From the NCBI RefSeq assembly GCF_018141405.1, contig NZ_CP058648.1, forward strand, positions 1,131,001 to 1,195,000: 64,000 nt of DNA. The letters are read 5' to 3'. The stretch's first letter is position 1. Each line of letters starts with the position of its first letter. Source of the DNA: Serpentinicella alkaliphila. Its GTDB lineage: Bacteria; Bacillota; Clostridia; Peptostreptococcales; Natronincolaceae. Position numbers and translations under genes: made by a program. Positions 312 to 42,660 of the stretch are shown here, one piece after another. Below the pieces are notes generated by a model, which did not search any database, had not been told where the DNA came from, and worked only from the letters and a program-made list of their open reading frames with translations.

Positions 312-1337
312 ATGAAATTATGGATACCAGATAGAGTATATTTTGAACCAACAGCAAGGGATTCGGAAGTGGGAAAAAGGGTATTACAATTCTGTAAAGA
401 AAATAGCATTCCTATCCTTCAAACTACATCCCATAACCAAGTGAGAGATTTACCAGGTAAGGATGAAAAGGCAAAATATGCAGCAGCTAAAAAAACTTTG
501 ATAGTTGGAACTAAAAGAAGTCTAAAGTTAGAAGTATGTAAACCCTCGGCCCACTATCAATTTTCTCTAATGACAAACTGTCCTGGAAGCTGTGAATACT
601 GTTACTTGTTTTCAACACAGGGACAGAAACCATATGTACGCATATATGTAAATTTAGATGACATGTTTGATACTATAGAAAACTATATTGAAAAAAGACT
701 TCCTAATGCCACAATGTTTGAGGCTGCTAGTACAGGGGATCCATTGGCTGTGGAGCATATAACTGGTACTTTAAAGGATACAATAGAGCATTTTGGTTCC
801 CTACAAAAAGGCCGCCTTAGAGTAGTAACTAAATACTCAAATGTAGATAATATATTAAAGGCAAATCACAAGGGACATACAAGATTTAGATTTAGCATTA
901 ATACAAATTATATTAATAGTAATTTTGAGCATAATGTTGCCCCGTTAGAGGAGCGGTTTAAAGCGGCAGATGACATTTCTAGAGCAGGTTATCCCTTAGG
1001 CTTTATTATTGCGCCGATAATGATGCATGATAACTGGAAAGAGGAGTATAAAAACTTATTTGAACAATTATATGAAAGTATACCCCATAAAAGAAATGGA
1101 CTGATAACATTCGAATTAATTCAACATAGATTCACTATGAGTGCAAAAAATGTTATTGAACAAAGATTTCCTAATACAAAATTAGAAATGAATCCTGAAA
1201 ATAGAGCCAAGAAATGGGGTAAATATGGAAAGACTAAATATATTTATAAAAAAGAAGAAGCTAATGAAATTAAAGAATATATTGAGAAACTAATTAAAAA
1301 ACACTTTGTCAATTCACATATTCAATATTTTACCTAA
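312..1337 (+). CDS. splB: Spore photoproduct lyase (radical SAM)
   Basis: This 341-residue protein repairs 5-thyminyl-5,6-dihydrothymine (spore photoproduct) in germinating spores. The radical SAM cluster motif CPGSCEYCY gives cluster ligands C90, C94 and C97, followed by Y98, the position of the tyrosine proposed in radical relay. The position of the Bacillus hydrogen-donor Cys141 (FEAACTSD-like context) reads FEAASTGD here, so it is Ser140. A cysteine at C76 (EVCKPSAHY) matches, as I recall it, the Cys74 discussed for the Clostridium acetobutylicum enzyme. A strong ribosome site (AGGAAGGAG) sits before the ATG. It appears monocistronic. Family assignment is secure; the donor swap is an inference from motif context. 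Confidence 0.95.
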   Translation: MKLWIPDRVYFEPTARDSEVGKRVLQFCKENSIPILQTTSHNQVRDLPGKDEKAKYAAAKKTLIVGTKRSLKLEVCKPSAHYQFSLMTNCPGSCEYCYLFSTQGQKPYVRIYVNLDDMFDTIENYIEKRLPNATMFEAASTGDPLAVEHITGTLKDTIEHFGSLQKGRLRVVTKYSNVDNILKANHKGHTRFRFSINTNYINSNFEHNVAPLEERFKAADDISRAGYPLGFIIAPIMMHDNWKEEYKNLFEQLYESIPHKRNGLITFELIQHRFTMSAKNVIEQRFPNTKLEMNPENRAKKWGKYGKTKYIYKKEEANEIKEYIEKLIKKHFVNSHIQYFT

Positions 1338-1413
1338 TTATAACCTTCACTTAAAATTGATTTAATAATTGTATTTTAAAATTAAAATAAAGTAAAGATG
1401 TTGAGGTGTAGCT

Positions 1414-2562
1414 ATGTCAAATAAAAAAATAATTATAATGACTGCTTCAGTAGGTCACGGACACAATAAAGTTGCTTTAGCTACCAAAGAAAGCTTGCTT
1501 AAAGAGAATAAAAATCTAGATATAAAAGTTGTAGACTTTGTTAAAGTAATCGAAAGCTTATTTGATCAGCTTATTTTAAATGCATACTTTAAAATAATTG
1601 ATACTTTCCCTAGCTGGTATCATTATATTTATTCTATTACATCAAAAATGAGTAAGGATGGGAAAGTTAAAGATCTATTTGCCCATCGCTATAAGAAGAA
1701 AATTCTGAATATAATAGAGGATTTTAAACCTGATGCAATCATTTTTACTAATCCATTTATTCTAACAATTGTAGGATATTTAAAAAAGATAGGAAAAATA
1801 AATATTTATACAGCGGCGATAATTACAGACTATTCTGCCCATAATATTTGGTTAAACCCCTATATTAATAAATACTTTGTAGCTTCCAAAGAGTTAAGAA
1901 AAGAGTTAATTAATAAAGGTATATTTGAAGAAAAAATTATTGTTTCTGGGATTCCAATTCATAAAAAATTTTATGATGAGTGCAATATAGACCAAATAAT
2001 TAGTAAATTAGATATAGAGAAAAAGCTACCTACTTTACTAGTAATGGGTGGAGGATTGGGTGTTGGAGCTATTGAAGAGGTATTAGATAATATTAACCTT
2101 ATAAAAGAGTCTCTACAAATAATAGTTGTCACAGGAACAAATAAGGCTTTAAAGGAGAAACTAGAAAATAAATTAGATAAATATAGACATAAAATAAGAG
2201 TCTTAGGGTTTGTTGATAATATACATGAGCTTATGCATTGTTCGGATTTGCTTATTTCTAAGTCTGGTGGAGTAACTGTAACTGAAGCAATAACAAAAAA
2301 ACTACCAATGCTAATTGTAGATCCTATTCCAGGGCAAGAACTAGAAAATGCAGATTATCTAACTAAGGCAGGCTTAGGCATTCTTATAAATGATATAAGA
2401 GAGGTAAGAGACAAAGTACAAGAGCTTCTGTTTGAAAATAACACTGTATATAAAGAAATCAAATCTAAATTAAATGATATTAACATTATTAATTCAAATG
2501 AAATTATAGCTAAAACCATATTAAATGATACGAAAACCTATAAAAGAACATCCGTCATCTAA
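1414..2562 (+). CDS. Diacylglycerol glucosyltransferase / MGDG synthase family GT28
   Basis: A 382-residue glycosyltransferase of the MGDG synthase/UgtP type. The N-terminal motif TASVGHGHNKVA is the membrane-lipid acceptor loop of this family, and the C-terminal half has the GT-B nucleotide-sugar region (VMGGGLGVGAIEE, then SKSGGVTVTEA and DPIPGQELEN). Relatives transfer glucose or galactose from the UDP-sugar to diacylglycerol at the inner face of the membrane, or make related glycolipids. There is no signal peptide, as expected. The start is ATG with GAGGTG upstream. Its stop codon lies in the loop of a terminator hairpin. The exact sugar and acceptor are not determinable here. Confidence 0.85.
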   Translation: MSNKKIIIMTASVGHGHNKVALATKESLLKENKNLDIKVVDFVKVIESLFDQLILNAYFKIIDTFPSWYHYIYSITSKMSKDGKVKDLFAHRYKKKILNIIEDFKPDAIIFTNPFILTIVGYLKKIGKINIYTAAIITDYSAHNIWLNPYINKYFVASKELRKELINKGIFEEKIIVSGIPIHKKFYDECNIDQIISKLDIEKKLPTLLVMGGGLGVGAIEEVLDNINLIKESLQIIVVTGTNKALKEKLENKLDKYRHKIRVLGFVDNIHELMHCSDLLISKSGGVTVTEAITKKLPMLIVDPIPGQELENADYLTKAGLGILINDIREVRDKVQELLFENNTVYKEIKSKLNDINIINSNEIIAKTILNDTKTYKRTSVI

Positions 2563-2578
2563 GGATGTTCTTTTATTT
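2542..2578 (+). terminator. Terminator overlapping the glycosyltransferase stop codon
   Basis: A perfect 12-bp stem AAAAGAACATCC / GGATGTTCTTTT (2542-2553 / 2563-2574) with a 9-nt loop that contains the stop codon. The T tract is mostly part of the stem, so efficiency is uncertain. Confidence 0.65.
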
Positions 2579-2630
2579 AACAAAAACTTAACATTCCATT
2601 AATATTGGGATAATTTTGGTCAAATATAGT
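2577..2630 (+). promoter_or_regulatory. PhoP-type direct repeats plus -10, upstream of the chemoreceptor
   Basis: TTAACA (2577-2582), TTAACA (2588-2593) and TTAATA (2599-2604) recur every 11 bp. Then come exactly 20 nt and a -10-like TATAGT (2625-2630). Direct hexamers at 11-bp spacing are the known binding pattern of PhoP in Bacillus and relatives. The pstS promoter downstream has the same spacing to its -10. There is no good -35 hexamer, as expected for an activator-dependent promoter. Confidence 0.72.
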
Positions 2631-2671
2631 AATTGTGTATATTCATTTACATAATTAGGGGGCGGTATATC

Positions 2672-5110
2672 TTGAGGCTAAAAATTGGAACAAAATTAAT
2701 GATTGTGTTTATTTTAATTACGTTAATACCAACTGTATTTTTAGGTACTTTTGCGTATAGAAGTACCTTTAACGCACTGGAAAATGGTGAAATCGAAAAG
2801 TTTAATATTTTGCTTGATGGAATTGTATCCAATACTAGGACAACATTAAAGGATACGGAGTTTTTATTAAAAAACCTTTCATCCAATACTTCGTTTACAT
2901 CTATGCTAGAGAACTATAACGAAAACGGAAGGATAGATAACCCAGATCTTTTAAAAGAGACAAATAATATGTTAAGAAAAATTTACGTAGACTCTATGGG
3001 ATACTATGAAAGTGTATTTATAGTTGCTAGGGACGGATCAACCGTAGCTGATAGCTTAGGAAGAACAGGCTATAGCTTAGGAGTAAATGATTTATCTTTT
3101 ATTCAAAAATCTATTCAAAACAAATCCTTTCAAATTAGTGATATTTACTTCTCTAAATTAAGTCAAACTAATGTCGGTGTTCCAACCCTATCAATGGCGT
3201 ACCCAATAATGCATCAAACGGGGCAGGTTTTAGGGGCTATAGCTATAACTCTTGATTTTAGTCAATTTGATAAGGTAGTAAAGAATACTAAAATAGGCCA
3301 GTCAGGTTATGGTTTTATGCTAAATAGTGTAGGTGAAATAATTAGCCACCCTGATGGAACTATTTTATTAAAGAAAGCCGAAGATCAAGTAACAACTACA
3401 GTATTAAATGATGTAAAGGATGAAGTTAAGGGGTATGGTCAGCTTAAGTTAGGAAATTCTTACTGGAGTTATTTCTATTATGCAGTTCCATCTACAGACT
3501 GGATTATTGCATTTACGTTGCCGGAAGAAGAGTATCTATATGTAGCCAATAGTATTGGTAAAAACACATTGTTAATTATAGGGATGTGTGTAGCGTTATC
3601 ATTAGTGGCTGCGTTGTTATTTAATAAGCAGTTTACTAAAAATATAAAAGAATTAGTTTTAGTGTTAGATAATTTAGCTAGGGGAGACTATTCTACATAT
3701 TCTCAATCTGAATCTAAGGATGAATTTGGCTATTTATCTGAGAGAGTAAACTATATGATTGATTCCCAAAGAGATATTTTACTGAAGTTAGTTTCAACAT
3801 CATCCTCTTTACATGATGCAAAGACAAATATGGTTACAACTACTAAATCAGGAGAGGAGCAGATGGAAGAAATAGCTGCTACTGCACAACAATTTTTATC
3901 AACTGCAGAGGAAAATAAAATAGTTGTGAAAAAGATTGATGAATCCATAGAAAAGGTTATTTCTCAGGCACAAATGGTGGAAAATATAAGTCAAATGGCA
4001 GTAAGTGAAAGTCAAAGGGCCCATAACTCCATAGAAAGTGGACTCCTTGCTACGGAAACTGCATTAAATATGATGTTTCAAATAGATGATTCTATTGAAA
4101 ATACAGCAAAGGATGTTTTAACTCTTGTAGAGGATTCAAAAAAAATTAATGAATTTCTCGAGTATATTAGAACTATTGCTAGAGGTACAAATCTATTGGC
4201 ATTAAACGCTACAATTGAAGCCGCTAGAGCAGGTGAACATGGAAGAGGATTTGCTGTTGTGGCGGAAGAGGTTAGAAAGTTATCTCAGCAAAGTAATGAG
4301 GCAGCTGAAGAAGTTGCAAAAACAGTTAGTAATATACTTCGAAAGATTAATGAAGTAAATGAAAAGATAAAGATTACTCAACAAAATTCTATAGAAGGAC
4401 GAAAGGCTTCTACTAATGTAAAGGAAAGCTTTAGGCATATAATAACATCAATAGATAAAGTATCTGAAATGATTAATAAAACCAGTGAATCCGTTAGAAT
4501 CCAAGTAGAAGATACTCATAATGTTACAAAGGAAATGAGTAGTATAGAGGATATGATACAATATACCCTTTTAGGGGCTAGGCAAATTGCAGAAGGCACA
4601 TCGAGTCAGGCTCATACGATGACTAATATCAATGATATTGCTAATGAACTTCAACAAATCTCTGTAGAATTGGGTGCTATAGCATCCCAGTTTAAACTAG
4701 GAGAAGTTTCGAATACTGAGGAGTGTGATAGCAAATTAGGTTTGTTAACAGATAGTTGTGAAAATGAGCAATATAATAATTATAATGAAGAAACTGAAAG
4801 TGGGTCAGCCATTGAAAATGATACTGAAATAAATATCGATGAAACTGAAGGTCTAATTGATAAGGACAGCAGCCAAAATGACCAATACATTAATTGCGTC
4901 GAAAATGAGAGCGGGTCAGATATTGAAGACATTTCTAAAGTAAATATTGGGGGAACTGAAGCACATACTGATGGGGAAGAAGACTTTACTCTTGGGGAAA
5001 TGAGTAGAGTAATTGAAGAGAGTAAGATTATTCAAAGCAGTGATGAGGAAGAGGTAGTTGAAGAAATGTTATTTGACAGTGAAAATCCATTAAATAAAAC
5101 TATCGCTTAA
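2672..5110 (+). CDS. Methyl-accepting chemotaxis protein with acidic C-terminal tail
   Basis: An 812-residue transmembrane chemoreceptor. TM1 lies near residues 8-28, followed by an extracytoplasmic dCache-like sensor (about 30-280), TM2 (about 295-315), HAMP and the methyl-accepting signalling hairpin, whose tip region reads [21 protein letters not shown] choose the TTG at 2672, 10 nt after AGGGGG, over an upstream start that would put 13 odd residues before the basic KIGTK start of TM1. The last about 130 residues are a Glu/Asp/Ser/Asn-rich tail containing an imperfect duplication of about 38 residues (compare [11 protein letters not shown] with [11 protein letters not shown]). The promoter has Pho-type repeats and the next genes are pstSCAB-phoU, so a role in phosphate-related taxis is inferred. 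The ligand is unknown. Confidence 0.9.
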
Positions 5111-5171
5111 CATAAACTTAACAATTCATTAACAGTGGCTTAACCAACATATAGGAGTTAAGCAATATAAT
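5107..5171 (+). promoter_or_regulatory. Pho-box array and -10 of the pst operon
   Basis: Four direct hexamers occur at an exact 11-bp period: TTAACA 5107-5112, TTAACA 5118-5123, TTAACA 5129-5134 and TTAACC 5140-5145. A TATAAT -10 at 5166-5171 follows after 20 nt. The first repeat overlaps the stop codon of the chemoreceptor gene. This matches the direct-repeat PhoP binding pattern and predicts phosphate-starvation induction. Confidence 0.82.
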
Positions 5172-5224: not shown

Positions 5225-6115
5225 ATGAAAAAAATAGCTTTAATTCTTGTAGTATTAATGGTAGCGTCATTAGCTCTAGTAGGATGTGGAGGAAAGCAAC
5301 AAACTAACGAACAAACAAACAATAACCAAAACAGTGACATTGATTTTAGCAAACTAATTCAGGCTAGGGGTTCAGATACAATGGTTAACTTAGGGCAAAT
5401 GTGGGCTGAGGAATTCATGGACAAATATCCAGAAGCTCAACTTGCTGTAACTGGTGGTGGATCTGGAACAGGAATCGCTGCTATGATTAACGGAACAATT
5501 GATATTGCTTTATCATCAAGATCAATTAAAGAAAAAGAAGTTGCTGATGCAAAAGCAAATGGAATTGAACCAGTAGAGTTTGTAACTGGTAGAGATGGTA
5601 TTGCAATCGCAGTTAGCAAAGATAATCCAGTTCAAGAACTTTCAATGGATGATCTTAAGGCGATCTTTACAGGTGAGAAAACAAACTGGAAAGATTTCGG
5701 TGGAGAAGATGCACCAATAACACTTTACTCAAGAGAGTCTAACTCTGGAACATATGCATTCTTTAAAGAATTCGTTTTAAAAGATGAAGAGTACGCAACA
5801 CACTCAAACTTAATGCCATCAACACAAGCTATTGTTGAAGCAATCAAACAAGACAAAAATGGTATCGGTTATATTGGATTAGCATATTTAAATGACCCAG
5901 CTATAGTAGGTGTTCCAGTTAAAAAAGATGAAGGGTCAACAGCTTACAAACCATCATTAGAGACAATTCAAGCAGGACAATACCCAGTAGCAAGACCATT
6001 ATTCTTATACACTAATGGACAACCAGAGGGAGCAATCAAAGCATTTATGGATTTTGTAATGGGTGCTGAAGGACAAAAAATAGTACAAGAAATTGGATTT
6101 ATTCCAGCAAAATAA
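5225..6115 (+). CDS. pstS: Phosphate ABC transporter substrate-binding lipoprotein
   Basis: A 296-residue lipoprotein: hydrophobic signal and lipobox LALVGC with C21 as the lipidated residue, then an Asn/Gln linker (about 24-36). The phosphate-binding loops typical of PstS are present: ARGSDTMVN, GGGSGTGIAAM and SRESNSGTYAFF. It captures phosphate outside the membrane and delivers it to PstC-PstA. It starts with ATG after GAAAGGGG and is the first gene of the pst operon behind a four-repeat Pho promoter. A hairpin after the gene may set its excess over the membrane subunits. Confidence 0.97.
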   Translation: MKKIALILVVLMVASLALVGCGGKQQTNEQTNNNQNSDIDFSKLIQARGSDTMVNLGQMWAEEFMDKYPEAQLAVTGGGSGTGIAAMINGTIDIALSSRSIKEKEVADAKANGIEPVEFVTGRDGIAIAVSKDNPVQELSMDDLKAIFTGEKTNWKDFGGEDAPITLYSRESNSGTYAFFKEFVLKDEEYATHSNLMPSTQAIVEAIKQDKNGIGYIGLAYLNDPAIVGVPVKKDEGSTAYKPSLETIQAGQYPVARPLFLYTNGQPEGAIKAFMDFVMGAEGQKIVQEIGFIPAK

Positions 6116-6147: not shown

Positions 6148-6184
6148 GCGGGTAGTTGAAGAACTATCCGCCATGTCTTTTTTT
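6148..6184 (+). terminator. Intercistronic hairpin between pstS and pstC
   Basis: A 10-bp stem GCGGGTAGTT / AACTATCCGC (one G-U pair) with a GAAG tetraloop is followed by CATGTC and seven T. It is probably a partial terminator or mRNA 3' stabiliser that yields more PstS than PstCAB. Confidence 0.7.
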
Positions 6185-6282
6185 CTATGGGGATAGATAA
6201 AAAGAGATAGGACAAATTTTTAGCTTTAAATTTTTATGTTAACTATTGCTCAATGGATTTATATAGATGAGAGGTGTGTTTT

Positions 6283-7221
6283 ATGAAGGAAGCGGTTGGA
6301 AAAGTAGAAAGAGTAGAACACAGTAAGAATATAAAAAAGGGAATTAAAAATAGAGTAGGGGAATTTTTAATAGAAAATTTAATTTTTGTATTAGGAATCA
6401 CTTCTGTACTAATAATAGCGTTAATTTTCATGTTTTTACTAAGAACAGGTCTACGTGTATTTTTAGACGTAAGTCCTAAGGAATTCTTTTTAGGTAAGTA
6501 TTGGTTTCCTGTATCTAAAAATCCACAATATGGTATATTGCCAATTGTAGCGGGATCACTAATGGTTACACTGGGAGCTATCCTTATTTCCGTCCCCATA
6601 GGTGTAGGTAGTGCCATTTTCATTTCGGAAGTGGCACCACCGAAAACCAAGACGGCATTAAAGGTAATTATAGAGTTTTTATCTGCAATACCATCAGTTG
6701 TACTAGGCTTTTTGGGGATTGTAGTACTATCGAATTGGGTAAGAATCTCCTTTTCTTTAACTTCAGGATTTACGGTTCTTACGGGTTCAATTTTAGTTTC
6801 TTTAATGGCTATGCCAACTATTATTAGTATATCCGATGACGCAATAAGGTCTTTACCTGAAGAGTATAAAGAGGCATCTTTAGCACTGGGTGCGACTAAA
6901 TGGGAAACAATAAGATATGTTTTAATACCTGCTGCATCCTCAGGTATTATTGCGGCTGTTATGCTTGGAATAGGAAGAGCAATTGGCGAAACGATGACTG
7001 TAATGATGGTAACGGGTAACGCAGCCCAAATTCCGAATTCATTTTTAGTGTCGGGAAGAACAATGACTGCAACTATTGCTGCAGAAATGGGTGATACGGT
7101 TAGAGGTGGCACTCACTATCATGCACTATTTGCAGTTGGTATTGTGTTGCTGTCTATGACTACAGTTATAAACTTAATCGCCGATTTTGTGCTTTCTAGA
7201 GCTAAGAGGGAGGCAAGATAA
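6283..7221 (+). CDS. pstC: Phosphate ABC transporter permease PstC
   Basis: A 312-residue integral membrane protein with about six transmembrane segments. The cytoplasmic EAA-type coupling loop reads EASLALGATKWETIRYVLIP and is followed by GIGRAIGETMTVMMV, both typical of PstC. I place the start at the ATG at 6283 because GAGAGGTG lies just before it; a GTG three codons upstream overlaps that site. The stop overlaps the start of pstA (TAATG), which indicates translational coupling. Confidence 0.96.
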   Translation: MKEAVGKVERVEHSKNIKKGIKNRVGEFLIENLIFVLGITSVLIIALIFMFLLRTGLRVFLDVSPKEFFLGKYWFPVSKNPQYGILPIVAGSLMVTLGAILISVPIGVGSAIFISEVAPPKTKTALKVIIEFLSAIPSVVLGFLGIVVLSNWVRISFSLTSGFTVLTGSILVSLMAMPTIISISDDAIRSLPEEYKEASLALGATKWETIRYVLIPAASSGIIAAVMLGIGRAIGETMTVMMVTGNAAQIPNSFLVSGRTMTATIAAEMGDTVRGGTHYHALFAVGIVLLSMTTVINLIADFVLSRAKREAR

Positions 7222-8078
7222 TGGTTAATCAAAATAAAAAGAATATAGAACAGAAATTAGCATTTTCTATTTTAGGATTAGCAATGTTACTTGTTATAAT
7301 TCCAACAGTGCTAATAATAGGATTTATTATATATAAGGGTATTGGCGCAATTAGTATTGAGTTTATTACGGCTATGCCTAGAAGAGGTATGACACAGGGA
7401 GGAATTTTCCCTGCCATAGTAGGTACCTTATACTTGGTATCAGGTACTTTAGCAGTGGCTCTTCCGTTAGGAATTGGGTCCGCAATATATCTTACGGAGT
7501 ATGCAAAAAAAGGTAAGGTTTTAAAAATAGTTAGATTAGCAATTTTAAACCTAGCAGGTGTTCCATCTGTAGTCTATGGTTTATTTGGTTTAGGGCTATT
7601 CGTATTATTTTTACAGTTTGGGCAGTCCATTATAGCTGGGGCTTTAACACTAGCCTGCTTAATACTACCAGTAATAATTACAGCATCAGAGGAAGCCTTA
7701 AAAAGTGTACCCCAAAGCTATAGGGAGGCATCCTTAGCATTAGGGGCTACAAAGTGGCAAACTGTTAGAAGTGTTGTATTACCACATGCGATGCCTGGTA
7801 TTTTAACAGGTGCTATATTAGGTATAGGTAGAGCTGCTGGGGAAACTGCACCTATATTATTAACGGTTGTTGCATTTTTCTTACCGAGACTTCCAAAATC
7901 AGTGCTTGATCAGGTTATGGCATTACCATACCATTTATATATAATATCCACACAGATTCCAAATATGCCAGAAGAAATAAAATATGGTACTGCATTAGTG
8001 CTACTTGGAATAGTATCAATATTCTTTATTATAGCTACAGTAATTAGAATTAAGTTTAAAATCTCTAAAAAGGCTTAA
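7221..8078 (+). CDS. pstA: Phosphate ABC transporter permease PstA
   Basis: The 285-residue second permease subunit, partner of PstC in the phosphate channel. About six transmembrane helices are evident. The coupling loop EASLALGATKWQTVRSVVLP and the motif GIGRAAGETAPILLT are characteristic. The ATG shares bases with the pstC stop. The next gene, pstB, begins 20 nt after the stop. Confidence 0.96.
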   Translation: MVNQNKKNIEQKLAFSILGLAMLLVIIPTVLIIGFIIYKGIGAISIEFITAMPRRGMTQGGIFPAIVGTLYLVSGTLAVALPLGIGSAIYLTEYAKKGKVLKIVRLAILNLAGVPSVVYGLFGLGLFVLFLQFGQSIIAGALTLACLILPVIITASEEALKSVPQSYREASLALGATKWQTVRSVVLPHAMPGILTGAILGIGRAAGETAPILLTVVAFFLPRLPKSVLDQVMALPYHLYIISTQIPNMPEEIKYGTALVLLGIVSIFFIIATVIRIKFKISKKA

Positions 8079-8098
8079 GTTAAATTAGGAGGGAAAAG

Positions 8099-8851
8099 AT
8101 GAATAAAATATCCGTTAAAGACTTAAATTTATTTTACGGTGATTTTCAGGCACTTAAAAATATATCCTTAGACATTGAAGATAAAAAAGTAACTGCATTA
8201 ATCGGTTCTTCAGGATGTGGAAAGTCAACTTTTTTAAGGACTTTAAATAGAATGAATGATTTAATTGATGGCGTAAAAATAGAAGGAAAAATAGCCTTAG
8301 AGGACGAAGATATATATGAGTCTGATATTGATGCGGTAGCTTTAAGAAGAAGAATAGGTATGGTTTTTCAAAAACCAAACCCATTTCCAAAATCAATATA
8401 TGAAAATGTTGCATATGGGCCAAAAAGACATGGTATAAAAAATAAGAAGCAATTGGATGAGATAGTTGAGACTAGCTTACGTGAAGCGGCTCTTTGGGAT
8501 GAAGTAAAAGATAGGTTAAATAAATCGGCTTTAGGTCTTTCGGGGGGACAACAGCAAAGACTTTGTATTGCTAGAGCACTTGCTATGAAGCCAGAGGTAC
8601 TTCTAATGGATGAGCCAACATCTGCACTTGATCCAATTGCTACAGCTAAAATAGAAGATTTAATTTTTGAGCTTAAGAAAAACTATACTATAGTTATTGT
8701 AACTCATTCTATGCAACAGGCTGCAAGGATATCAGATGAAACTGCGTTCTTTCTAATGGGTGATCTTATTGAGTCTGGTAAAACTCAAAAAATATTTACC
8801 ACACCTTTAGATAAGAGAACAGAGGATTATATTACAGGAAGGTTTGGATAA
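8099..8851 (+). CDS. pstB: Phosphate ABC transporter ATP-binding protein
   Basis: A 250-residue ABC ATPase that powers phosphate uptake at the cytoplasmic face. Walker A is GSSGCGKST (36-44), the ABC signature is LSGGQ (147-151), Walker B is LLMDEP (168-173), and the switch His is in [10 protein letters not shown]. The PstB-specific opening, with the [14 protein letters not shown] region, is present, and the length is normal for PstB. The ribosome site is AGGAGGG and the gene is in the middle of the operon. Confidence 0.97.
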
Positions 8852-8868
8852 AACTAAGGGGGTATACT

Positions 8869-9519
8869 ATGAGAAGTCAATTTAACAATCAATTAAAGGA
8901 TTTAAATGTAAAGCTAATAAAAATGGGAGCTATGGTTCAAGAAATTATTGAAATGACAATAAAATCTCTAACAACTTTAGATCTAGATTTAGCCAAAGAA
9001 GTAGTTGTTTTTGATGATAAAATAGATGAATTAGAGTTAGAGATAGAGATGGAATGTATGAGACTATTAGCCCTTCAGCAACCAATGGCCAGAGATTTAA
9101 GAGTTATAGGGACGATTATGAAAATAATAACAGACTTAGAAAGAATGGGCGATAATGCTGTAAATATATCAAAAGAAACTTTAAAAATATGTGAAGATAA
9201 ACTAATAAAGCCTTTAGTGGATATACCTCGAATGGCTAAGCTTTCTGAGGCTATGGTAATAAAATGCTTAGATGCATTTATGAAAGAGGATATAGAAATG
9301 GCTCTAGAAGTGGCTCAAGATGACGACGCCGTTGATGAAATATATGAAAGAATCTATTTTGAATTAATAGAAATGATGATTGAGGATCCGTCTATTATAC
9401 AGCAGGCCACTAGATTACTATTTATAGGTAGATATCTAGAGAGAATTGCTGATCATGCAACAAATATTGGAGAAAGAATTATCTATATGGTTACTGGGGA
9501 GTTAAAGGAAATTAACTAA
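8869..9519 (+). CDS. phoU: Phosphate signalling regulator PhoU
   Basis: A 216-residue all-helical protein made of two repeated three-helix units (about 15-100 and 115-205). Each carries the acidic metal-binding pattern of PhoU (ITDLERMGDNAVNIS in the first, LERIADHATNIGERI in the second). PhoU restrains Pst transport and signals phosphate sufficiency to the PhoR/PhoP system. It is the last gene of the pst operon; a strong terminator follows. Confidence 0.96.
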   Translation: MRSQFNNQLKDLNVKLIKMGAMVQEIIEMTIKSLTTLDLDLAKEVVVFDDKIDELELEIEMECMRLLALQQPMARDLRVIGTIMKIITDLERMGDNAVNISKETLKICEDKLIKPLVDIPRMAKLSEAMVIKCLDAFMKEDIEMALEVAQDDDAVDEIYERIYFELIEMMIEDPSIIQQATRLLFIGRYLERIADHATNIGERIIYMVTGELKEIN

Positions 9520-40050: not shown

Positions 40051-40572
40051 TTAAATTGAAATTGACAATATTATAGTGGCTAAGTGAGCTATAATTATTC
40101 CACATAAAACATCAGTAGGATAGTGGACACCCAAATAAATTCTTGATACACCAACTAAGAAAGCTAAGGTTAAAAAAACGAGAGAGAATAATGGAAAGAA
40201 TTTACCTAGAATTAATGCAGTAGTAAAGGCAGCGTTAGTGTGACCAGAAGGAAAAGAGTAGTTGCATTTAGGAACATTACTTAGGGCTAAATCCTTTAGA
40301 ATTTTATATGGTCTAGGTCTATTAACTAGACGTTTTATAACTTGAACAATAACTTGATTTATCACTAGGTGTATTGCTATGGTTTTTCCAACTTGAAAAG
40401 ATTTATTATTTAAGGACATTAAAAATAAGGGTAGAAGAATACTAAATACAGTTGACCCTAAATGAGTAATGTTTCTCATGAAAATATTTAAGTATCTATA
40501 ATGGTTTTTGCTATTAATAAAACAGAATAGTTCCTTATCAGTTTCTAAAATAAGATTAGTTAAACTATACAT
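40051..40572 (-). CDS. PAP2 family phosphatase
   Basis: A 173-residue integral membrane PAP2-superfamily enzyme. All three signature motifs are present: KRLVNRPRP, SFPSGHT and SRIYLGVHYPTDVL, with the catalytic His in the third. Relatives dephosphorylate undecaprenyl pyrophosphate (BcrC-like), phosphatidic acid or phosphatidylglycerophosphate; this one cannot be placed with certainty. About five transmembrane helices. ATG after GAAGTGAA. It diverges from the 40720 gene, and the shared upstream region holds Pho-like repeats. Confidence 0.9.
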   Translation of the reverse strand: MYSLTNLILETDKELFCFINSKNHYRYLNIFMRNITHLGSTVFSILLPLFLMSLNNKSFQVGKTIAIHLVINQVIVQVIKRLVNRPRPYKILKDLALSNVPKCNYSFPSGHTNAAFTTALILGKFFPLFSLVFLTLAFLVGVSRIYLGVHYPTDVLCGIIIAHLATIILSISI

Positions 40573-40632
40573 ACTAATTCACTTCCTCTTTTAATTAAAT
40601 GTATTTATATAACTAATTGTATATGTTAATTA

Positions 40633-40686
40633 TTAACAGGTTGTTAAGAGTACGTAAATTTATAGTTAGATGTTGGCCTATATAAT
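40633..40686 (+). promoter_or_regulatory. Third Pho-like promoter
   Basis: TTAACA (40633-40638), TTAAGA (40644-40649) and a degenerate TAAATT (40655-40660) at 11-bp period, then 20 nt, then TATAAT (40681-40686). The phasing and the 20-nt gap are the same as at the chemoreceptor and pstS promoters. The third hexamer matches the motif poorly, so confidence is lower. Confidence 0.5.
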
Positions 40687-40719
40687 GAATGTATCTTAAA
40701 CTCATAATGGAGGTAGAAA

Positions 40720-41022
40720 ATGAAAAATGAAATGAATAGGTATGACTGGAGATTTAATTTTGATAAGGACATAACCCGTGCTTATTATGAGAGATTGGAT
40801 ATATTATGTAGCTGCGCAACCTATCGTAACTACTATAAAAATATACAGGCAATTCCATTAGGACTTAGAAGATTTTTAGAGGAATTTGGAATTGATGTGG
40901 GAAAGCCCATAGAACAGTGGTCTGTTATTGTCAATAAAGATGAAAATATTGTTGAGAATGTTGTATATTATGCAATAAACGGTGTAGCTAACTCTTCTGA
41001 TTGTTATGAAATTGATATTTAA
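40720..41022 (+). CDS. Hypothetical protein, probably truncated by an in-frame stop
   Basis: 100 residues that I do not recognise. It is a soluble, aromatic and Cys-containing sequence (ITRAYYERLDILCSCATYRN, then a helix and the strands WSVIVNKDENIVENVVYYAI). It starts with ATG after a good GGAGGTAG site and lies behind a Pho-like promoter. The frame continues after the TAA at 41020-41022 without another stop to 41235, so this is probably the first part of a protein of about 171 residues interrupted by one nonsense codon. Confidence 0.6.
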   Translation: MKNEMNRYDWRFNFDKDITRAYYERLDILCSCATYRNYYKNIQAIPLGLRRFLEEFGIDVGKPIEQWSVIVNKDENIVENVVYYAINGVANSSDCYEIDI

Positions 41023-41421: not shown

Positions 41422-42660
41422 ATGAATGATAAAACAGTAAAAAATGAATTCATAAATATTTTAAAAAACAGAGAAATTACACCAGTATATCAAGCAATTG
41501 TATGCTTGAAAACTGGTGAAGAATTAGGGTACGAGGCTTTAAGCAGGGGACCTAAAAATAGTGTTTTTAGTAATCCAGAACATTTATTTACTGCTGCTAA
41601 GGACTATAACATGGTTTGGGAATTGGATATGTTATGTAGGCAGGAGGCTATAAGAGGGGCTAGAGGCTTTTTAAATAAAAAGATTTTATTCCTTAATATT
41701 GACAGTAATATTATTAATGACTCAAAGTTTAAAAAAGGCTTTACTCGAGGATTATTGTCATCCTATGAAATCGAAACAGGCCAAATCGTCTTTGAAATAA
41801 CAGAGCATACAGCTATTAGCGATTTTCAGAAATTTAATCACATATTAGACAATTATAGGGGACAGGGGTACAAAATAGCAATTGATGATGCAGGAAACGG
41901 TCATTCGGGACTTAGAGTAATGACTGAGACAAGACCAAATTACATAAAACTCGACATGGAACTCATACGGAATATAGATAAGGATATTATTAAGAAAGAA
42001 TTGTTAAAAAGCTTTGTTAAATTTGCAGAGATTGCAGATATAAAACTTATAGCTGAAGGTATAGAAACAAAAGAAGAGCTAAGGGTTCTAATATCCATAG
42101 GTATTCATTACGGTCAAGGATTTTTATTGCAGAGGCCTCAACCATCAATTACTCCGATAGACAAAAACGAAGTGAAGTTAATCAAAGATTTAAATTTATT
42201 AATGCAAAAGATTTTCTCTAGAAAAGAAAGAATAACTATAGGTGATATTTCCAGGGCAGATGAAACAATTCTAGAAGACAGTGATTGTAATAAAGTTAAT
42301 GAATTATTTGAAGGAAATAAAAAACTTCAGGCAGTCATAATTACTAACAATGAAAAAAGTGTCATAGGATTAGTTATGAGGAATAAGTTTTATTATAGAA
42401 AAGTAGAATCCAAAAATGTTCTAAACTTTCTTAGAAAGCCTGTTACAGAGGTTATGGACAGGGACCCATTAATTGTAGAGCAAAGATACAATATTGTGGA
42501 TGTTTGTAGTATGGCGATTTCAAGAAAACAAGAAAAAATGTATGATTATGTTATTACAGTAAGAGAAGGGAAGTACTTTGGTGTAGTGCCAGTAGCTCAT
42601 TTATTATATGTCTTAGTTGCAATAAACAACTTGAAATGCCCAGAAGCCTCTACGGGTTAA
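41422..42660 (+). CDS. EAL domain protein with C-terminal CBS-like region
   Basis: 412 residues. Residues about 10-255 form an EAL cyclic-di-GMP phosphodiesterase domain with the key residues: EAL (38-40), LNID, FEITEH, IDDAGNG, YIKLD, IAEGIET and GQGFLLQ. It therefore looks catalytically competent. The C-terminal part (about 280-400) contains a CBS-like module (LRKPVTEVMDRDPLIVEQ, FGVVPVAHLLYVL) that may sense a nucleotide. There is no membrane segment. With the broken HD-GYP gene in this window it belongs to cyclic di-GMP turnover. Confidence 0.9.
   Translation: MNDKTVKNEFINILKNREITPVYQAIVCLKTGEELGYEALSRGPKNSVFSNPEHLFTAAKDYNMVWELDMLCRQEAIRGARGFLNKKILFLNIDSNIINDSKFKKGFTRGLLSSYEIETGQIVFEITEHTAISDFQKFNHILDNYRGQGYKIAIDDAGNGHSGLRVMTETRPNYIKLDMELIRNIDKDIIKKELLKSFVKFAEIADIKLIAEGIETKEELRVLISIGIHYGQGFLLQRPQPSITPIDKNEVKLIKDLNLLMQKIFSRKERITIGDISRADETILEDSDCNKVNELFEGNKKLQAVIITNNEKSVIGLVMRNKFYYRKVESKNVLNFLRKPVTEVMDRDPLIVEQRYNIVDVCSMAISRKQEKMYDYVITVREGKYFGVVPVAHLLYVLVAINNLKCPEASTG

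Follow-up and report, generated by a model that had tools for sequence, protein, structure and literature searches.

We propose that the gene at positions 2672-5110 of the window (the 64,000-nucleotide stretch of Serpentinicella alkaliphila DNA analyzed here) encodes a phosphate-starvation chemoreceptor, placed under PhoP-type control together with the pst operon and steering the cell towards phosphorus. On the sequence evidence assembled below, we put the probability of this reading at about 0.8.

The receptor gene and pstS are each preceded by an array of direct hexamers with a period of 11 bp, followed 20 nt past the last hexamer by a -10 element (Table 1). This arrangement had been claimed in a preliminary description of the region, and the hexamers, the period and the gap were confirmed letter for letter at both promoters. 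The 20-nt gap is a distance to a -10-like sequence, inferred from the sequence rather than from mapped start sites. A consensus scan of both promoters found no -35 consensus at 16 to 18 nt from TATAGT or TATAAT, as expected if these promoters depend on an activator. A terminator-like hairpin separates the receptor promoter from the glycosyltransferase gene upstream, and no Rfam element was found in the region.

Table 1. Positions of genes and putative regulatory elements in the window
Feature	Coordinates	Strand	Remarks
Weak candidate array	1329..1393	+	TTTACC, ATAACC, TTAAAA, TTAATA, then TAAAGT after 20 nt; uncertain
Terminator-like hairpin	2542..2574	+	AAAAGAACATCC/GGATGTTCTTTT, 9-nt loop, T-rich tail; read directly
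Pho-box-type array, receptor promoter	2577..2604	+	TTAACA 2577-2582, TTAACA 2588-2593, TTAATA 2599-2604; period 11 bp; bases read directly
-10 element TATAGT, receptor promoter	2625..2630	+	20 nt past last hexamer
dCache_1 chemoreceptor gene	2672..5110	+	812 aa from TTG 2672; Pfam, ribosome-binding site, ortholog alignment
Pho-box-type array, pstS promoter	5107..5145	+	Four hexamers, the first overlapping the receptor stop codon: TTAACA 5107-5112, 5118-5123 and 5129-5134, TTAACC 5140-5145; period 11 bp
-10 element TATAAT, pstS promoter	5166..5171	+	20 nt past last hexamer
pstS, phosphate-binding lipoprotein	5225..6115	+	TIGR02136, 273 bits (cut-off 206.6); PBP_like_2
pstC, pstA, pstB	6274..8851	+	Open reading frames; 78-85% identical to syntenic genes in five relatives
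phoU	8869..9519	+	Pfam PhoU, 1.6e-46
PAP2-family phosphatase gene	40051-40572	-	Flanks arrays at 40620-40690
100-aa open reading frame	40720-41022	+	Flanks arrays at 40620-40690

No three-hexamer array in the 64-kb window matches better than these two, which agree at 17 to 18 of 18 positions; the next independent site agrees at 15. On a 24-position score that combines three hexamers with a -10 element at 20 nt, the receptor promoter scores 22 and the pstS promoter 23; no site scoring at least 21 arose in 6.5 Mb of first-order Markov simulation, nor did any of roughly 2,500 further 295-nt segments taken from the window reach 21. The paired arrays are thus well above chance. The preliminary description had called for a genome-wide scan for the array with its 20-nt gap, which we ran as a pattern search; all genome-level statements made here rest on such searches. 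The pattern TTAACA-N5-TTAACA-N5-TTAA-N22-TATANT has two perfect matches in the 3,257,581-bp genome, which are the receptor and pstS promoters, and the next two matches are two positions off, one of them lying before a gene for an NT5C-like phosphatase. Because the pattern was drawn from the two sites themselves, this uniqueness is partly circular, and the relatives provide the independent test. A search with MCPsignal identified 18 more chemoreceptor genes; these lack the array, and their upstream regions score 13 to 16 of 24. A genome scan with only two hexamers was uninformative, giving hundreds of matches, as many as its reversed control.

Close orthologs of the sensor domain are found in intact receptors of five relatives (G011, G015, G002, G082, and G095; 54-66% identical), and a decayed copy in G090 is 67% identical in the sensor over its first 131 residues. 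These six genomes represent three families of the order and, with the window genome, make seven; the intact receptors are 47-56% identical over about 680 residues. Among 391 genomes sampled across the class, the sensor had matches in just two, G002 and the genome of the window itself, so this type of receptor looks confined to the order. As in the window, the receptor gene lies directly upstream of pstS-pstC-pstA-pstB-phoU in G015, G002, G082, G095, and G090. The order in G011 is PhoB-like regulator, receptor, GntR-type regulator, NT5C-like phosphatase, PhnG, PhnH, PHP/phosphatase, PhnD, PhnC, PhnE, and then pstS with an array of its own, so that a C-P lyase cluster stands between receptor and pstS.

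In each of the six ortholog receptor promoters three or more hexamers recur every 11 bp, and TATAGT or TATATT stands exactly 20 nt downstream of the last one; the pst promoters keep TATAAT at 20 nt. At six of the seven loci the receptor upstream region outscores every other 200-nt segment; at the G011 locus, which holds several further Pho-like arrays, 16 of 883 background segments reach its score. The array in G095 is weak, its last three hexamers matching at 13 of 18 positions. The pst array reaches up to or into the receptor stop codon in the window and in three relatives (G015, G002, and G082). In G090 the receptor gene (L061, C1:1740165-1740557) has decayed to a 168-codon frame that lacks most of the sensor and of the signalling domain, while the two Pho arrays persist there, as does the pst operon. 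The G011 background, the weak G095 array, and the decayed G090 gene count against our reading.

The receptor protein has the architecture of a dCache_1 chemoreceptor: an extracellular dCache_1 domain (8.9e-26, 91.3 bits; cut-off 45), two membrane helices read from the sequence, and an MCP signalling domain (MCPsignal, 1e-34, 120.3 bits; cut-off 34.6). We take TTG 2672 as its start since the listed open reading frame begins at 2633, at or before the probable start of the transcript; a ribosome-binding site, GGGGGCGG, can be read at 2658-2665. The protein ends in a long, acidic tail of about 130 to 140 residues (window 4690-5107). The receptors of G002 and G082 have no such tail, and those of G011, G015, and G095 have a shorter one.

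Hexamers of the TTAACA type are those of Bacillus PhoP. PHO boxes are 11-nt direct repeats that are bound head to tail (PMC4415409). Two marks of a Pho regulon are present here, namely at least two head-to-tail 11-nt direct repeats upstream of a -10 element and the occurrence of the array before recognized phosphate genes, both in the window genome (pstS) and in its relatives. In G015 and G011 a match to the pattern precedes a gene for a PhoU-domain Na/Pi cotransporter, and matches in relatives also precede pstS and genes for NT5C-like phosphatases; one further match lies before a UgpC-like transporter ATPase, which falls below the UgpC cut-off and is suggestive only. Since the same arrays precede Na/Pi cotransporter, pstS, and NT5C-like phosphatase genes in the relatives, we read the array as a PhoP-type Pho box. 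In a window of 33% G+C, and in a genome with about nine OmpR-family regulators, the arrays might instead be chance A+T-rich repeats or the site of another regulator of that family. Chance and base composition are rejected as their source by the simulation and the background segments, and the conservation of the arrays in the relatives, together with the phosphate genes that they precede, also speaks against this explanation, which we regard as very improbable. The proposals that receptor and pstS share a PhoP-like control and that the receptor belongs to the phosphate-starvation response are both well supported, by the promoter geometry and the gene order that six further genomes preserve and by the presence of such arrays before recognized phosphate genes in relatives.

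The least certain part of the proposal is the ligand, which could be Pi itself, Pi-loaded PstS, or an organic phosphorus compound. Receptors of the dCache_1AA type, which recognize amino acids, carry a conserved Arg and an aromatic residue in the distal pocket in an R-x-W/Y type of motif. In an alignment of the receptor orthologs with other dCache receptors we did not find this signature: where the others have D-R-x-Y, the orthologs have [DE]-L-x-F (by alignment only), so an amino acid ligand is not indicated. Both the distal half of the sensor and its distal pocket region are highly conserved among the orthologs, and this conservation, with D-R-x-Y lacking, would suit a distal pocket that binds Pi, a phosphorylated compound, or a phosphonate directly. 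The association of the receptor with C-P lyase and a phn transporter cluster in G011 points the same way, and there are receptors of the Cache type that respond to phosphorylated C3 compounds (sCache_PC3; PMC12395807). Set against this, a profile search of the PDB with the sensor domain gave no ligand-bound relative and no clue to the ligand; the nearest solved Cache structures cover no more than its second half, with E values no better than 7e-9. Direct sensing is a serious possibility to which we give somewhat less than even odds. By analogy with Pseudomonas aeruginosa, where PstS docks on CtpL, sensing could instead be indirect, with Pi-loaded PstS docking on the dCache domain. Such a partnership would be in keeping with the adjacency of the receptor gene to pstS, which it immediately precedes in six of the seven genomes, and with their shared type of promoter, and the precedent itself involves PstS (PMC4926252); however, the sensor of CtpL is a different, helical domain of 286 residues (PMC4926252), and AlphaFold models of our sensor, alone and with one ortholog, were poor (mean pLDDT of 37.8 and 46.6) and gave no interface. 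The G011 receptor also stands beside PhnD, so a binding protein other than PstS might be the partner. We entertain PstS docking tentatively, as a plausible minority view.

Phosphate regulation need not fix the ligand, and dCache domains bind many ligands. The receptor might accordingly sense a non-phosphorus cue, phosphate shortage merely turning on a foraging receptor, and the wide ligand range of its domain would allow this. The gene nevertheless stays in a phosphorus-acquisition cluster in all seven genomes, which argues for a phosphorus cue, and we consider a non-phosphorus cue unlikely. A phosphorus-sensing role, as judged from these sequences, is likely.

Our preferred reading, a phosphate-starvation chemoreceptor that is coregulated with pst, would work as follows. 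As phosphate runs low, a response regulator of the PhoP/PhoB type would be phosphorylated, probably the one encoded at about 2,034,150 in the genome (L062), whose best NCBIfam match is PhoB (265.5, below the cut-off of 296.2) and which adjoins a kinase that passes the PnpS model (414.3 against a cut-off of 400) and is of the PnpS/PhoR type. The phosphorylated regulator would bind the observed and conserved repeats, lining up head to tail along the 11-bp period, and at the observed spacing from the -10 elements it would recruit RNA polymerase to two promoters that lack a -35 element, that of the receptor and that of pstSCAB-phoU, inducing both at low phosphate. In the gene order observed, the receptor transcript probably also reads through into pst, given the tight packing and the overlap of the pst box with the receptor stop codon. 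With the domains described above, the dCache receptor would join the array of CheA, which is present in all seven genomes, and bias swimming towards phosphorus. Between pstS and pstC (6148-6171) lies a terminator-like hairpin, likely an attenuator that allows more PstS than transporter to be made.

Several other loci carry Pho-like sequences. The weak candidate array upstream of the receptor region has the same 11-bp period and precedes a gene for an MGDG-synthase-like glycosyltransferase (1414-2562); it scores 18 of 24, which about 1% of the 295-nt segments of the window reach. When phosphate is short, glycolipids can replace phospholipids, and this gene may be a third Pho target, although the geometry is suggestive but weak and the gene was not found beside the receptor in the relatives examined. 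At 40620-40690, arrays lie on both strands between the PAP2-family phosphatase gene and the 100-aa open reading frame, and the plus-strand site departs from the Pho pattern at two positions and has its TATAAT at 20 nt. A gene for an EAL-domain protein (c-di-GMP phosphodiesterase), which also matches CBS weakly at its C-terminus, occupies 41422-42660 in the window, with counterparts at L051:11130-12371 and in L142; its ortholog in G011 is divergent from the PhoB-like regulator. The array at this gene is good in G011 (20/24), weaker in G015 (18), and poor in the window (16), and it is a possible link of phosphate shortage to motility. More broadly, these genomes may hold a lineage-specific class of phosphorus-sensing dCache receptors that forms a joint promoter-operon unit with pst, so that one PhoP would turn on taxis to phosphate together with its uptake, possibly along with a Pho-controlled EAL phosphodiesterase that frees motility; we offer this wider picture as a conjecture that falls a little short of an even chance.

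Phosphate-controlled chemoreceptors are already established in other bacteria and well documented in Pseudomonas. In the open-access library that we searched, chemoreceptors linked to phosphate were represented by the studies on Pseudomonas, by a transducer of Campylobacter, and by the sCache_PC3 family; in it we found no phosphate-starvation chemoreceptor in Clostridia or Gram-positives, subscription journals lying mostly outside the search. Within that library, the suggestion that a phosphate-regulated chemoreceptor would be new for Clostridia is borne out. A conserved receptor-pst unit with a Cache sensor in anaerobes would show that the logic of phosphate taxis induced at low phosphate arose with an unrelated sensor domain. 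The dCache subfamily of the receptor, so far unassigned, would also gain a narrow, testable list of ligands.

In P. aeruginosa, low phosphate raises the levels of CtpH, CtpL, and pstS, with PstS acting as the protein that presents Pi to CtpL (PMC4926252). CtpL, raised with pst and serving taxis to low Pi, resembles the receptor described here in its regulation (predicted in our case), but it is a Gram-negative protein with a non-Cache helical sensor, whereas the clostridial receptor has a dCache_1 sensor, lies upstream of pstS, and has its own 11-bp-repeat promoter; with a sensor from another family, it falls outside the CtpL type despite the similar regulation that is predicted. CtpH is likewise a phosphate-induced chemoreceptor, as is predicted here, but it binds Pi directly through a four-helix-bundle sensor, which belongs to another domain family than dCache_1 (PMC4926252). 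The sCache_PC3 receptors such as PacP, compared by description, are also Cache-type chemoreceptors linked to phosphorus compounds; they differ in having a single Cache domain, in occurring in Proteobacteria, and in binding phosphorylated C3 compounds (PMC12395807). The arrays themselves resemble the PhoP boxes of Bacillus subtilis in hexamer type, in the 11-bp period, in the presence of at least three repeats, in their position upstream of pst, and in having a -10 without a -35 element, with the difference that the predicted targets here include a chemoreceptor.
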